From Methanobacteriota archaeon (GTDB lineage: Archaea > Hydrothermarchaeota > Hydrothermarchaeia > Hydrothermarchaeales > SZUA-236): 5,425 nucleotides of DNA. Of the stretch, positions 572 through 5,425 are shown one piece after another. Location: contig RFHW01000165.1 of NCBI GenBank assembly GCA_003695745.1, forward strand, positions 1 to 5,425, written 5' to 3'. Position numbers and translations under genes: made by a program. Below the pieces are notes generated by a model, which worked only from the letters and a program-made list of their open reading frames with translations, made no database searches and was not told where the DNA came from. The number at the start of each line of letters is the position of its first letter. The stretch's first letter is position 1.

Positions 572-2398
572 ATGAAGATCGGCTTTGAGATCCATCAGCA
601 GCTTGATGCGCACAAGCTCTTCTGCAGCTCGCCCTCGCTTCTCAGGGATGACGAGCCCGGGCTCACGGTGCTCCGCAGGCTCCGCACAAGCCAGAGCGAG
701 CTTGGCGAGGTGGACGAGGCCGCCCGAAGGGAGTTCCAGAAGGGAAAGAGCTTCATCTATCAGGGCTATAACGACACCATCTGCCTTGTGGAGCTGGATG
801 AGGAGCCGCCAAGGGGGCCGAACCCGGAGGCCGTGGAGATAGCCCTCACCATAGCGCTGATGCTCAACGCCACGGTGGTGGATGAGATACACTTCATGCG
901 AAAGCTCGTCATCGACGGCTCCAACACCTCCGGCTTCCAGCGCACGGCGGTGATAGCCTTCGACGGCCATCTGGACACAGAGGAAGGGCGGATCAGGATA
1001 CCCACCATCTGCCTTGAGGAGGAGGCGGCGCGAAAGGTCGCTGAGGACGACCGCACGACCACATACAACCTTGACAGGCTCGGCATACCCCTCGTGGAGA
1101 TCACAACCGCCCCTGACATCAAATCGCCTGAGCAGGCGCGGGAGGCCGCCCAGAGGATCGGCGAGCTCCTCAGGGCCACAGAGCGGGTGAAACGGGGCAT
1201 CGGCACGATCCGCCAGGACATCAACGTCTCAGTTGAAGGCGGGGCGAGGGTGGAGATAAAAGGGGTTCAGGAGCTAAACACCATCCCCCGGCTCATCGAA
1301 AATGAGGTGGAGCGCCAGAAGGGCCTCATAGATATAGCGAGGAGGCTTGAGGAGCGGGGGGTCAAAAAAGAGGATGTGAAGGGCAGGGTCCATGACGTGA
1401 CCGGGTTGTTCAAGGACACAGGCTCCAAGGTCATCAGAGGACAGCTCAAATCCGGCAGGGTCCTTGCTCTGAGGCTCAAGGGCTTTGCAGGGCTTCTGGG
1501 AGGCGGGCTCCTCGGAAGGGAGATGGCCAGATACGTCAGGGTCAGCACAGGACTGAAGGGCATCTTCCACTCAGACGAGCTCCCGGCCTACGGGATAACA
1601 GAGGACGAGGTGGCCTCTGTGTCAAAGAGGCTTGGGCTGGAGGAGGATGATGCCTTCGTCCTTGTGGCAGGGAGGGAGGAGAGGGCGAGAAAGGCCCTTG
1701 AGGTGGTGCTGGAGCGGGCTGCCCAGGCCCTCGCAGGCCCTCCTGAGGAGACGAGGATGGCAAGGGACTCCTCCACCGAATACATGCGGCCCCTGCCCGG
1801 CGCCGCCCGCATGTACCCTGAGACCGACATACCCCCATTCGTGGTGTCAGAGGCGCTTCTGGACAGGCTCCGTGAAAACCTGCCTGAGACCTATGAGGAG
1901 AAGACCGCAAGGCTCATGGCGAGCTACGGCCTGGGCCGGGAGCAGGCAGGGCAGCTTGTGAGGGCAGGCCACACAGCCCTCTTTGAAGGGCTGGCGCAGG
2001 AAGGGGCCATCCCGGCCACGACCATTGCATCAACCATATTAAAGGCCTCAAAGGACCTTTCCACAGGGCTGATGAAGGAAGAGGATATAAAAGGCCTCTT
2101 CAAGGCCCTTGCGGTGGGCCGGATATCGAAAGAAGCCATACCAGAGATACTGGATGAGGTAAGGGGTGGAGCGGACTTTGAAGAGGCCCTTGAGAAACTG
2201 GGGGCCGGCGGCGGGCCGGACCTGGAGTCGCTTGTTGACCGCATCATCAGGGAGAAGGAGGGCTTCATCAGAGAGCGGGGCGCCAATGCCCTGAAACCGC
2301 TCATGGGCCTTGTGATGAAGGAGGTGCGGGGGAAGGTGGACGGCAGGGTGGTGAGCGAGACCCTGAAGAGGAGGCTGGAGGACTTTCTGTCAGATTAA
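572..2398 (+). CDS. gatE: Glu-tRNA(Gln) amidotransferase subunit E
   Basis: GatE is the tRNA-binding kinase/amidotransferase subunit. It phosphorylates the misacylated glutamate on tRNA(Gln) and amidates it with ammonia supplied by GatD. The 608 residues are near the usual family length (about 620). The GatB-like cradle domain covers roughly residues 1-268. It opens with GFEIHQQLDAHKLFC and carries NLDRLGIPLVEITTAPDI (166-183) and RQDINVSVEGGARVEIKGVQ (214-233). An AspRS-like (GAD) insertion follows at about 270-395; this insertion separates GatE from bacterial GatB. The cradle resumes with STEYMRPLPGAARMYPETDI (401-420). A helical and YqeY-like tail occupies about 425-605 and would contact the tRNA elbow. 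The N-terminus is short but well supported by the ribosome-binding site just upstream. The gene is intact, GC-rich and in one operon with gatD. It is universal and essential in archaea that lack a GlnRS. Confidence 0.97.
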   Translation: MKIGFEIHQQLDAHKLFCSSPSLLRDDEPGLTVLRRLRTSQSELGEVDEAARREFQKGKSFIYQGYNDTICLVELDEEPPRGPNPEAVEIALTIALMLNATVVDEIHFMRKLVIDGSNTSGFQRTAVIAFDGHLDTEEGRIRIPTICLEEEAARKVAEDDRTTTYNLDRLGIPLVEITTAPDIKSPEQAREAAQRIGELLRATERVKRGIGTIRQDINVSVEGGARVEIKGVQELNTIPRLIENEVERQKGLIDIARRLEERGVKKEDVKGRVHDVTGLFKDTGSKVIRGQLKSGRVLALRLKGFAGLLGGGLLGREMARYVRVSTGLKGIFHSDELPAYGITEDEVASVSKRLGLEEDDAFVLVAGREERARKALEVVLERAAQALAGPPEETRMARDSSTEYMRPLPGAARMYPETDIPPFVVSEALLDRLRENLPETYEEKTARLMASYGLGREQAGQLVRAGHTALFEGLAQEGAIPATTIASTILKASKDLSTGLMKEEDIKGLFKALAVGRISKEAIPEILDEVRGGADFEEALEKLGAGGGPDLESLVDRIIREKEGFIRERGANALKPLMGLVMKEVRGKVDGRVVSETLKRRLEDFLSD

Positions 2399-2473: not shown

Positions 2474-2490
2474 CAGAAAGCTTTAATAAT
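2474..2490 (+). promoter_or_regulatory. BRE/TATA promoter of the toxin-antitoxin pair
   Basis: CAGAAAG (2474-2480) resembles the archaeal TFB-recognition element, and CTTTAATAAT (2481-2490) directly after it resembles a TATA box. With the usual distance of about 26 bases from box centre to start, transcription should begin near 2511-2513. That falls on the ATG at 2513, giving a leaderless mRNA. It is the best promoter-like match in the + strand gaps of the window. Confidence 0.55.
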
Positions 2491-2499
2491 GTTAAGGAT

Positions 2500-2513
2500 T
2501 GTAAATCTTTACA
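2500..2513. promoter_or_regulatory. Palindromic candidate operator over the predicted transcription start
   Basis: TGTAAA-TC-TTTACA has two perfect 6-base arms and a 2-base centre. It lies downstream of the TATA box and touches the antitoxin start codon at 2513. Type II antitoxins commonly repress their own operon by binding such palindromes, so this is a reasonable autoregulatory site. Binding is inferred only from symmetry and position. Confidence 0.4.
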
Positions 2514-2695
2514 TGAATGCCTCTAAACGTATCCCTGTGACGAAGGTGGTGTGGGAGGAGCTCGGCCGCCTGAAAAGGGCTGGGCAGACCTATGATGAGC
2601 TCCTGATGGAGATGATTGAAGAGCACAAGAAAGGGCTTCTCTTCAGGGAGATGCGGGCCATCGAAGAGCGCGGCGACTTCGTGGAGCTGGAATAA
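2513..2695 (+). CDS. Small archaeal type II antitoxin
   Basis: This 60-residue, charged protein precedes a RelE/ParE-fold toxin and is probably its antitoxin. It resembles small archaeal antitoxin-like proteins that begin with a short strand of the KRIPVS type and continue with W-x-E-L-x-x-L-K and G-E/Q-T-Y-D-E-L-L. Here SKRIPVTKVVWEELGRLK covers about residues 4-21 and GQTYDELLMEMIEEHKK 24-40. The first half has the strand-helix-helix look of a ribbon-helix-helix DNA-binding dimer. The acidic tail (MRAIEERGDFVELE, 47-60) would wrap the toxin. I chose the ATG at 2513 over the in-frame ATG at 2489. The upstream start would add eight residues atypical of the family and would overlap the TATA-like box. 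The stop lies 26 bases before the toxin start. The exact family name is uncertain; the antitoxin role rests mainly on the pairing. Confidence 0.75.
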   Translation: MNASKRIPVTKVVWEELGRLKRAGQTYDELLMEMIEEHKKGLLFREMRAIEERGDFVELE

Positions 2696-2706
2696 GCCCG
2701 TCGGGC
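2696..2706. repeat. Short palindrome between antitoxin and toxin
   Basis: GCCCG-T-CGGGC begins at the base after the antitoxin stop codon and ends 15 bases before the toxin ATG. As RNA it could fold into a small GC hairpin that slows ribosomes or transcription and lowers toxin output relative to antitoxin. As DNA it could be a second binding site. No function is proven; an 11-base palindrome in GC-rich DNA can arise by chance. Confidence 0.3.
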
Positions 2707-2721
2707 AGTTTGAGAGTCAGT

Positions 2722-3012
2722 ATGGCCTATCGGGTCCTGATCGACAGGGAGGCGCTGGCCTACGTGGACAGCCTGCCGGAAAAGAGCCAGAGGATCGTCA
2801 AGGAGAACCTGAAAAAGCTTGGCGACAATCCCTATCCAGGGAGCGGCGCAGGCGACAAGGAGAAGCTCACCTATCGCGGGGAATCGCTGTACCGGATTCA
2901 CATAGCCCGCGCCTACACCGCCTTCTACCGGGTCTACGATCGCGACAAAACCGTGAAGATCCTCAAGGTCATGACCATCGAGCAGGCGCACAAAGAATAC
3001 GGGAGGCTGTGA
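2722..3012 (+). CDS. RelE/ParE-superfamily toxin
   Basis: This 96-residue basic protein has the layout of RelE/ParE toxins. A first strand (MAYRVLIDREALAYVDSL) leads into two helices (about 10-33, EKSQRIVKENLKKL). A loop rich in Gly and Asp and a four-strand sheet follow: LTYRGESLYRIHI (49-61), YTAFYRVYD (65-73) and KTVKILKVMTI (76-86). Arg52, Arg58, Arg63 and Arg70 cluster where archaeal RelE carries its RNA-contacting basic residues, and the protein ends HKEYGRL. RelE members cut mRNA on the ribosome, whereas ParE members poison gyrase; the sequence alone does not separate these well, although the basic sheet favours RelE. I chose the ATG at 2722; an in-frame TTG at 2710 would add four residues but is a poor start. 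The ribosome-binding site is weak, as expected for a toxin made at lower level than its antitoxin. No disruption is seen, so the pair looks functional. Confidence 0.85.
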   Translation: MAYRVLIDREALAYVDSLPEKSQRIVKENLKKLGDNPYPGSGAGDKEKLTYRGESLYRIHIARAYTAFYRVYDRDKTVKILKVMTIEQAHKEYGRL

Positions 3013-3184: not shown

Positions 3185-4351
3185 CTACCATGTGCTCATC
3201 TCCTTTTCCAGTCTTTCGCTTCTTCCCTTTGCCAAAAACTCCTCTATCTCTCTGGAGATGCTCTCTCCCACCCCAGGGATCTTTCTCAACTCCCCTCTCT
3301 TGTAGATCTCTTTTATGCTCTCATTCAGATTCTCTATACTTTGAGACGCTCTATGATATGCCCAAGCAGAATAGGGATCTCCTGATTTAAACTCCTTGAA
3401 AAAGGCCATGAGCAGCAAATGACTTGCAACTTCAAAATTCTCTTTATCAAAGCCTTCTTTCGGTGTCAAGGTTTTCTGACTCAAAGCCCGTTCAAAGCTT
3501 GGCGGTGGGATGTAATTTTCTATCCCGTATCCTCTACAAAACTGGAAGGCCTTTTTGTTCACCTTCACCACATAATCCTGTGAGGGGCTCTCTTGTTTGC
3601 CATATAGCTTCTCATATTTCTCCACGAGCCCTGGAAGATTTCTCTCTAACAGCTCCATGAATCTCAAACGTTGATTGCTTCTTAAGGTCATTGCACCACC
3701 GATTAAGACGTATCTTGCGCACTCCGATGCTCTTTTAATCACCTCTTCCATGTTCTCTTCGCTGTCCAGAAGATAGGGGACTATCGGTGTAAAATCAACG
3801 CCGGCCTGTATCCCTTCTTCGTTTAATATCCTCACCGCATCCAATCTTTTCTCTGGAGAGGGGGCAAAGGGTTCTAACAAGGATAAGAGCCTTCTGCTGA
3901 AGGTTACTATGGTCATAGAAACGGTGCACCACGCTTGTTTTGCTATTTCACCCAGCAGGTCTATATCCCTCAAGACCAAATCGCTTTTTGTGATGATATG
4001 GACCGGGAACCTGTGTCTTGCCAGAATCTCTAAGACACCCCTTGTTACCTCATACCTTTTCTCAGCAGGCTGATAAGGATCGGTAACCCCAGACATGGCC
4101 ACAACATCTGGTATGGCCTTTTTGAGCTCTCTTTCCAGAACCCCAGGAGCATCCTTTTTTACATAGATGACCCTTGAAAAATCCCTGTAATCCTCATGGA
4201 CAAGATATCTTTCGGTTATGGCGTCGCAATAGTTGCAGGCGAACTGACAGCCTCGGTAAGGATTAATGGAGTATCTATTCCAAAACCAGTTATCTCTAAA
4301 CCTATGCTTTGTGAGCATGCTTTTTGCTTCAATTTCAACGAATTTTACCAT
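3185..4351 (-). CDS. SplB-like radical SAM protein with a C-terminal Pol X-type helix-hairpin-helix domain
   Basis: This 388-residue protein belongs to the COG1533/SplB group, whose best-known member is spore photoproduct lyase; most archaeal members have no known reaction. The radical SAM cluster motif is C35-x3-C39-x2-C42 within NPYRGCQFACNYCDA (30-44) and should bind a [4Fe-4S] cluster and S-adenosylmethionine. GVTDPYQPAEKRYEVTRGVL (88-107), EPFAPSPEKRLDAVRIL (160-176) and GGAMTLR (218-224) are further group landmarks. About residues 305-384 form a separate module. SGDPYSAWAYHRASQSIENL, a linker, then IPGVG (358-362) with IEEFLAKGR match the 8-kDa N-terminal domain of DNA polymerase beta/Pol X, which binds gapped or 5'-phosphate DNA. 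The lyase lysine of Pol beta (Lys72) aligns with Glu368, so DNA binding is likelier than dRP-lyase activity. The start overlaps the upstream AlkD-like gene by 17 bases; AGGGG at 4361-4365 may be its ribosome-binding site. The gene is AT-richer than gatE. Substrate unknown. Confidence 0.88.
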   Translation of the reverse strand: MVKFVEIEAKSMLTKHRFRDNWFWNRYSINPYRGCQFACNYCDAITERYLVHEDYRDFSRVIYVKKDAPGVLERELKKAIPDVVAMSGVTDPYQPAEKRYEVTRGVLEILARHRFPVHIITKSDLVLRDIDLLGEIAKQAWCTVSMTIVTFSRRLLSLLEPFAPSPEKRLDAVRILNEEGIQAGVDFTPIVPYLLDSEENMEEVIKRASECARYVLIGGAMTLRSNQRLRFMELLERNLPGLVEKYEKLYGKQESPSQDYVVKVNKKAFQFCRGYGIENYIPPPSFERALSQKTLTPKEGFDKENFEVASHLLLMAFFKEFKSGDPYSAWAYHRASQSIENLNESIKEIYKRGELRKIPGVGESISREIEEFLAKGRSERLEKEMSTW

Positions 4352-5159
4352 TGTTAACAGCCCCTATCATGCCCAAGATCTCGGCCTGCTTTTCCATTGG
4401 CAGCTTCTTCATCCCATCCTTAATGATCCACCTTGCATCCTTGTTTGGATCTCTCCCCGCCCATCTAGCTAAAAACCCTGCCACATCCTCAGGATTCCCC
4501 TTGGTTATCTCCCTTAAAACCCATGATACCGCCTTCTTAACATCCTTCTCATCATCTTCCATAACCCTGTCAAGGATCCTGAAGACCCTGTCTGTAGTCT
4601 TCATCCTTTTATATCCTCGCAAGGTCACCACTCCAAAACGCCGGACCCACCTGTTATCGCTCTTAATCCACCTTTCTGAAAGGGGCAAAACAAGCTCTGG
4701 ATCGGAATATACTATTGGCTCTACTCCAAAAATGGCAAGGTTATCACAGACCGACCAGTTATCAAGATCAGATAATACTGAAGAGACAAAGCCTAAACAA
4801 ATCTCTGGATTCTTCGGACCAAACCTCTCCAAACTTTTCCCTGCTATCTGCCTTGCTTCCCACGACCCTTCAGCCCAGATAACCTCCAACAATCCTTGTG
4901 CCTTTGAGGGCTCTTTCTGAATGAATCTGCCTATTTCGGCCGCTATCACCCTTAATACAGGCTTGGGAACGCCATAAAACTTTCCAGTCTCTGGAATGAT
5001 CCTCTGGTAATTTTTTGTTGCCCCTTCATCACCATGAGATTTAAGGAGCTTCTGCAATCCCTTTGTGAACTCCTTGGGTTTATCTACCTTTTCAAGCAAC
5101 TCCCTTGTTCTCTTCCGGATCAATGTCTTATCCAATCGGTTATGTCCGAACCCATTCAT
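4335..5159 (-). CDS. AlkD-like HEAT-repeat DNA glycosylase/DNA alkylation repair protein
   Basis: This 274-residue, basic, all-helical protein resembles the DNA_alkylation family (AlkC/AlkD), whose bacterial members excise positively charged alkylated purines without flipping the base into a pocket. The family start KFYGVPKPVLR lies at about 60-70, and WAEGSWEARQIA at 95-106. The AlkD active-site residues appear conserved: W135-x3-D139 (NWSVCD) matches Trp109/Asp113 of Bacillus cereus AlkD, WVRR (171-174) holds the equivalent of Arg148, and KKAVSWVLRE has W213 at the Trp187 position. I chose the ATG at 5159. It forms an ATGA overlap with the stop of the upstream adenylyltransferase gene, with a GGAAAGGA sequence directly before it. 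The frame stays open to 5327, but that stretch is a shadow of the upstream gene, being abnormally Arg-rich. The gene is coupled to the radical SAM gene downstream. Glycosylase activity is inferred; some relatives only bind DNA. Confidence 0.85.
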   Translation of the reverse strand: MNGFGHNRLDKTLIRKRTRELLEKVDKPKEFTKGLQKLLKSHGDEGATKNYQRIIPETGKFYGVPKPVLRVIAAEIGRFIQKEPSKAQGLLEVIWAEGSWEARQIAGKSLERFGPKNPEICLGFVSSVLSDLDNWSVCDNLAIFGVEPIVYSDPELVLPLSERWIKSDNRWVRRFGVVTLRGYKRMKTTDRVFRILDRVMEDDEKDVKKAVSWVLREITKGNPEDVAGFLARWAGRDPNKDARWIIKDGMKKLPMEKQAEILGMIGAVNNGKIR

Positions 5160-5425
5160 TCCTTTCCAAGCCTTCTCACCCTCTCCACGCCTCTGATCTC
5201 TTTTATGTATCTGGCGACGGGGGGTGGAACGAGCCTTTCCCAGTCCCCGCCTTCTCTCATCCTTCTCCGTATCTCTGTGCCTGAGTATTCTTCGCCTTTT
5301 ATGAGCTCGATCTCCCGCACCTCCCATCCCGCCTCCCTGAAGAGCCGCTGCACAAGGGGGTTGCCGCTGTAGACCGCATCGAATGGCGGGACGAGGGACG
5401 CCACATGGCCGGGGTAGAGGTCGTC
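5156..5425 (-). CDS. Archaeal nicotinamide-nucleotide adenylyltransferase, C-terminal half (partial at right edge)
   Basis: The enzyme joins NMN and ATP to make NAD+ and pyrophosphate in the last step of NAD synthesis. The frame is open to the edge of the window, so the N-terminal half with the HxGH nucleotide-binding motif is missing; 89 of roughly 170-180 residues are visible. They match the archaeal NadM-type protein: LVPPFDAVYSGNPLVQRLF (11-29), EYSGTEIRRRM (46-56), which is the second nucleotidyltransferase signature of the SxTxxR kind, and GGDWERLVPPPVARYIKEI (58-76). The GTG at 5404-5402 is an internal valine, since family-like sequence (DDLYPGH) continues upstream. The stop overlaps the start of the AlkD-like gene in an ATGA, so this gene heads or lies within the - strand operon. 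Base composition is GC-rich like gatDE and unlike the two genes downstream. Confidence 0.92.
   Translation of the reverse strand, partial: DDLYPGHVASLVPPFDAVYSGNPLVQRLFREAGWEVREIELIKGEEYSGTEIRRRMREGGDWERLVPPPVARYIKEIRGVERVRRLGKE

Follow-up and report, generated by a model that had tools for sequence, protein, structure and literature searches.

A radical SAM protein fused to a polymerase X-type HHH_8 domain and paired with an AlkD-type gene: a candidate DNA repair enzyme in archaea

Here, we describe a locus in a 5,425-nucleotide stretch of DNA from a Methanobacteriota archaeon (GCA_003695745.1), the forward strand of the whole contig RFHW01000165.1, referred to below as the window. On the minus strand at positions 3185 to 4351, with its stop codon at 3185 to 3187, lies a gene encoding a 388-amino-acid protein in which a radical S-adenosylmethionine (SAM) core is fused to an HHH_8 domain, and these two are the only Pfam families over cut-off across its length. 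The core occupies residues 1 to 285 (3497 to 4351, minus strand), matches PF04055 at residues 29 to 201 (E = 1.1e-13), and adopts a radical SAM fold in the predicted structure. Its CxxxCxxC motif (residues 35 to 42; 4226 to 4249, minus strand), followed by Asp43, is the predicted [4Fe-4S] and SAM site. The tail, residues 303 to 388 (3188 to 3445, minus strand), passes the curated score of PF14716 (HHH_8) over residues 304 to 377 (3221 to 3442), and both its sequence and its predicted fold are of the 8-kDa type found in family X DNA polymerases (Pol X). An AlkD-type DNA glycosylase gene (266 amino acids; 4335 to 5135, minus strand) overlaps the fusion gene by 17 bases. A first-pass annotation of the window had recognized a radical SAM protein carrying a Pol X-like domain, and the Pfam scan, a profile search and the predicted fold all agree with it; the similarity of the tail to the Pol X 8-kDa domain is significant.

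How far the core resembles spore photoproduct lyase (SPL; SplB, PDB 4FHC series), a bacterial enzyme that mends UV damage in DNA and its best structural match, depends on whether fold or catalytic residues are compared. By motif and barrel, the fusion protein appears to belong to the radical SAM superfamily and would bind a [4Fe-4S] cluster and cleave SAM; the motif cysteines 35, 39, and 42 and D43 are kept in 90 of 91 aligned rows, and the remaining row is gapped. The radical SAM fold is common to SplB and the window protein, as is a tyrosine on the SAM side before the third cysteine (Y41 in the window protein). According to the available passages of one study, however, the SPL relay tyrosine (Tyr99 in Bacillus subtilis, Y98 in the Gt enzyme) adjoins the third motif cysteine, as C98-Y99 in B. 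subtilis, and the hydrogen donor is Cys141 (C140 in Gt), some 43 residues past that cysteine (PMC3742179). In an alignment to SPL, the relay position falls on D43, and the position of the catalytic cysteine is empty, as the window protein has no cysteine at residues 43 to 141, that is, none between C42 and C142. Moreover, the SPL family PF20903 did not appear among the families listed for the window protein, even at E up to 10, and SPL was not among the 60 matches listed in a profile search with alignment A2; a search with the broader alignment A3 did list it. The window protein also has its extra HHH_8 tail and no UV or spore context. Because the SPL residues are missing, its reaction should differ from that of SPL, and the first-pass label "SplB-type" holds for the predicted fold but not for the relay tyrosine or the hydrogen-donor cysteine. 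We reject SPL proper as an identity on those two positions.

The cysteine test is weaker for the relatives than for the window protein, because 50 of the 91 rows (P0064 to P0120 of alignment A2) have a cysteine at position 25, where the window protein has Asn, and because one clostridial enzyme uses a cysteine at another place, in the passages available (PMC5368176). Cys25 sits ten residues before the cluster motif and might be the catalytic thiol of a sublineage. Within residues 43 to 140, a cysteine occurs somewhere in 8 of 91 rows, and 2 of 91 have one at residues 80 to 95. Cys142, though invariant in 91 of 91 A2 rows, was dropped as a clade-wide catalytic thiol: the residue is A or V in all nine tail-bearing rows from the phylum KSB1 and C in 7 of 124 rows of the tailless short form, and in the predicted model it begins strand 4 instead of ending it.

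The tail keeps the architecture of its Pol X counterpart better than its catalytic residues. In alignment A2, Tyr occupies the Pol beta Tyr39 position in 89 of 91 rows, and 69 keep the G[VI]G motif of the hairpin. The Pol beta lyase and 5'-phosphate residues, numbered as we take them to be and mapped through a PolX alignment, are mostly absent, with Lys at K35 in 2 rows, at K68 in 6, and at K72, the Schiff-base position of a Pol beta-type deoxyribose phosphate lyase, in none. Thus, the tail seems to retain the fold and the hairpin without the gap-end chemistry that we associate with them. A Pfam scan of the 388 residues found no polymerase (palm/nucleotidyltransferase) domain, and so the protein has in common with family X polymerases the sequence and fold of the 8-kDa domain but lacks their polymerase domain, lyase lysine, and most 5'-phosphate lysines. 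The missing lysines weaken Pol X-like, gap-specific binding as a function of the tail, and the specific role at nicks or gaps suggested in the first-pass annotation is unsupported for the same reason.

The fusion recurs beyond the window. PF14716 and PF04055 occur together in 116 of the 120 homologues listed out of 6,053 matches, window protein included. Where a source is named, it is usually archaeal (Methanophagales/ANME-1, Syntrophoarchaeum, Methanobacteriaceae, and Methanomicrobiales), and a few are labeled bacteria. A genome scan found a clear fusion at ten loci (L002 to L010 and L013), which together with the window make up the 11 fused loci considered below, and a weak tail at L011, L012, and L014. 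In the ANME-1 phylum, 34 of 294 genomes match at E up to 1e-60, including five full-length clear fusions in four genomes and broken fusions in two more; genomes G249 and G268 carry a divergent full-length form, of which L109 passes the Pfam HHH_8 cut-off. Twelve of 82 KSB1 genomes match at E up to 1e-70, ten of them reaching at least profile position 376, and among seven KSB1 matches scanned with Pfam, HHH_8 was over the cut-off in L191, L193, and L197 and weaker in four. No HHH_8 was found at E up to 0.1 in L012 (Spirochaetota) or L014 (KSB1). Finally, a profile of the tail matched none of 108 loci with short-form relatives (67 from the same scan, 19 from relatives, and 22 from Halobacteriota), so that COG1533 proteins do not carry the tail as a rule. 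Neither of the two results named as refuting the first-pass annotation, a tail common to all such proteins or a lack of significant Pol X similarity, was therefore obtained.

The tail-bearing proteins also share features of the core. In a tree of 62 rows, from which KSB1 rows L191 to L199 were left out, the ten archaeal fusions group as a single clade (support, 100/100), nested in a larger group of 15 rows that takes in those with weak tails (81/84, not starred). D43, G88, and Q227 are all present in every ungapped tail-bearing row: 12 of 12 archaeal fusions, 9 of 9 from KSB1, and 5 of 5 with weak tails. Among the 124 short-form rows, D43 is found in 3, G88 in 11, and Q227 in 6, and the D43 position is Y or F in 110. 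The fusion gene is split across two frames in L009, L010, and L013, all draft contigs, by either decay or sequencing error, and at L005 (3763 to 5841) fused and short-form radical SAM genes stand in tandem without AlkD.

The overlapping AlkD gene, overlooked in the first-pass annotation, is stronger evidence for a role in DNA repair than the tail. Its product matches PF08713 (E = 1.4e-45; 156.1 bits versus a cut-off of 21) and Bacillus cereus AlkD, an alkylpurine DNA glycosylase (5CL3 series; E = 1.5e-13), and it holds W127, D131, R166, and W205, which we take to be the catalytic W, D, R, W quartet. At 9 of the 11 fused loci, an AlkD-profile match lies no more than 1.4 kb away and on the same strand, and AlkD is near-complete at six (window, L002, L003, L006, L008, and L009), the other five proteins being 74 to 78% identical to that of the window. 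The same profile found no match near the core at the 67 short-form loci of the same scan or at the 19 from relatives. An AlkD2/AlkC-like HEAT gene lies upstream at 3 of the 12 KSB1 loci (L192, L194, and L195); the L194 partner passes Pfam DNA_alkylation (29.5 bits versus 21) and matches AlkD2 (E = 5.5e-08) and AlkC (4.4e-06). We know of no radical SAM partner for a characterized AlkD, and the passages found in literature naming both AlkD and radical SAM were unrelated. We note that Cys-rich DUF3795 genes lie near 5 of the 11 fused loci (L006, L007, L008, L009 at 6863 to 7420, and L010), as well as near L012 and L109 and near short-form L113 and L117.

The pair looks horizontally acquired, to judge by composition and gene order. 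It sits between host gatE (572 to 2398, plus strand), presumably encoding Glu-tRNA(Gln) amidotransferase subunit E, and the 3' part of host nadM (NMN adenylyltransferase; 5156 to 5425, minus strand), its upstream flank. Third-position GC is 0.50 for the fusion and AlkD genes versus 0.67 to 0.82 for gatD, gatE, nadM, and the parE-like gene, and of the 23 genomes of the host phylum, none but the host matches at E up to 1e-70. In a same-family genome (G001), one contig carries the last 30 codons of gatE followed by an oppositely oriented nadM; between them lies a single 129-amino-acid open reading frame (ORF) but neither gene of the pair. The fusion and AlkD genes diverge in step across loci. Together these observations suggest that the pair entered as a unit or was assembled in place. 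Contamination was rejected as the source of the foreign look, as the flanking gatDE and nadM are host-family genes (67% identity for gatE and 64 to 65% for nadM), although the window is a single 5,425-base contig and may be a chimeric assembly. Phage cargo was set aside because the best viral-contig matches (19 loci) cover no tail, a result that does not extend to the phage collection, which was not searched, and plasmid cargo because none of 79 matching plasmid records covers above 80% of the query. A defense system was likewise set aside, as neither protein matched PADLOC at E up to 0.01. Also between gatE and nadM, at 2489 to 3012 on the plus strand, a small antitoxin-like ORF with a weak, under-cut-off VapB-type match precedes a ParE-type toxin ORF (PF05016; 26.3 bits versus a cut-off of 23).

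How might the two proteins cooperate? The fold and the fusion point to DNA, as the first-pass annotation rightly argued from the fused module, and the AlkD partner points to alkylation damage. Together with the loss of the SPL residues, they suggest a radical SAM DNA-lesion repair enzyme that complements AlkD. That the fusion enzyme acts on damaged DNA together with AlkD is probable; that it forms the second, radical-based arm of an alkylation-repair pair is a proposal to which we give slightly less than even weight; and that it works by direct radical reversal is possible but more doubtful. In such a scheme, HHH_8 would grip the backbone of the DNA close to or at the site of damage and leave it uncut; the cluster bound by CxxxCxxC would split SAM, yielding a 5'-deoxyadenosyl radical; and reversal would begin with the abstraction of hydrogen by this radical from the damaged base itself or from its alkyl group. 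AlkD excises N3- and N7-alkylpurines, and the radical enzyme may take lesions beyond its reach. A narrower version, which we think improbable, casts the protein as an oxygen-free counterpart of AlkB, an enzyme that depends on molecular oxygen for its action on N1-methyladenine and N3-methylcytosine. It would dealkylate those same bases, with the 5'-deoxyadenosyl radical taking a hydrogen from the alkyl group of DNA held by the borrowed Pol X domain, while AlkD would excise the purine lesions, and the pair would pass between strict anaerobes, ANME-1 among them, as a repair cassette of two genes.

Several observations weigh against a repair pair with AlkD. Among the fused loci, AlkD is reduced to a 77-amino-acid remnant at L004; is a piece cut by the contig end, three ORFs from the fusion gene, at L010; and is replaced at L007 by a different protein (34.8% identical) on the 3' side that lacks the W of WxxxD. 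L005 has no AlkD within 3.7 kb upstream, and L013, whose upstream side is cut off, has none. An AlkD-profile match also occurs at 5 of the 22 Halobacteriota short-form loci. Pfam assigns L122 and L126 to DNA_alkylation and places L113 mainly among HEAT proteins, despite 29.6 bits for DNA_alkylation; L111 and L121 are matches to the AlkD profile, outside the Pfam scan. Two of the KSB1 partners score below the Pfam cut-off (17.3 and 19.0 bits), and in all three the catalytic D is E and the second W is N. The helix-hairpin-helix hairpin is degraded in L012 and L014. Moreover, most of the 11 fused loci are closely related (approximately 64 to 77% identical), so that their shared AlkD neighborhood partly reflects common descent, and the short-form control loci are more distant, some on short contigs. 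Finally, because the SPL relay residues are missing, SPL chemistry cannot be copied onto the fusion protein. Separately, L122 (133 to 2376) has a cluster for alkylation repair in which HHH_8 is absent: a single run of genes for AlkD, an O6-methylguanine methyltransferase (PF01035; E = 1.6e-17), and a radical SAM protein of the short form.

Perhaps the substrate is RNA or protein, with HHH_8 serving as a general nucleic acid handle and AlkD adjacent by chance or through shared transfer, but we consider this unlikely. Alternatively, the fusion enzyme could act after AlkD, on the abasic site or gap left by AlkD and an apurinic/apyrimidinic nuclease, where HHH_8 would recognize the break and the radical would clean a blocked end. 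The gene overlap, the abasic sites that AlkD is taken to produce, and the presumed seat of the Pol X and Pol beta HHH_8 domain at gaps fit that order of events; the 5'-end pocket, however, looks lost by the lysine counts given above, and we think it quite unlikely. It is rather improbable that the pair modifies DNA, with the radical arm making a modified base that the glycosylase removes or guards in the manner of restriction or epigenetic marking. The cassette does look mobile: AlkD and the fusion gene occur twice in one genome (L006 and L008, both in G065), and at L002 (6678 to 7948) ORFs that by eye resemble an IS3-type transposase pair run between them. Yet the PADLOC search was negative for both proteins, and no nuclease adjoins the fusion gene in the loci inspected. 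A true SPL with an extra domain, despite the structural match, Y41, and the relatives' latitude in cysteine placement, is highly improbable given Asp43, the cysteine-free interval before C142, and the missing PF20903 match.

Other families resemble the fusion in part. The PA0069 and Rv2578c radical SAM equivalogs (NF033668 and NF038135) have a common core over residues 2 to 277 (E = 1.2e-56 and 4.1e-59), but the fusion protein falls under their NCBIfam cut-offs (192/360 and 200/430 bits), and the short-form relatives have no HHH_8 tail and usually carry Y or F at the D43 position. PA0069 is presumably under LexA control, an assumption for which no supporting paper was found. TIGR03916 (rSAM_link_UDG, "putative DNA modification/repair radical SAM") is alike in concept, a radical SAM protein linked, as we take it, to a uracil-DNA-glycosylase (UDG)-like protein. 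It is a separate family, however, absent from the families listed for the window protein at E up to 1 and without a match in the host genome, and the partner here is AlkD, not UDG-like. Public domain tables, computed in advance, show the Radical_SAM and HHH_8 pairing, and no paper describing it was found among open-license PubMed Central texts, in keeping with the first-pass view of an undescribed arrangement. Overall, the first-pass interpretation is partly supported.

To our knowledge, no reaction has been assigned to COG1533-type proteins beyond the SPL relatives by fold. Such radical SAM proteins are widespread, and the fused tail and the overlapping AlkD gene give one clade of them a testable DNA-repair hypothesis. 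If it is true, a second DNA-acting radical SAM branch would stand beside SPL, with Asp43, Gly88, and Gln227 as its signature, and radical chemistry could offer strict anaerobes an oxygen-free way to reverse base damage.
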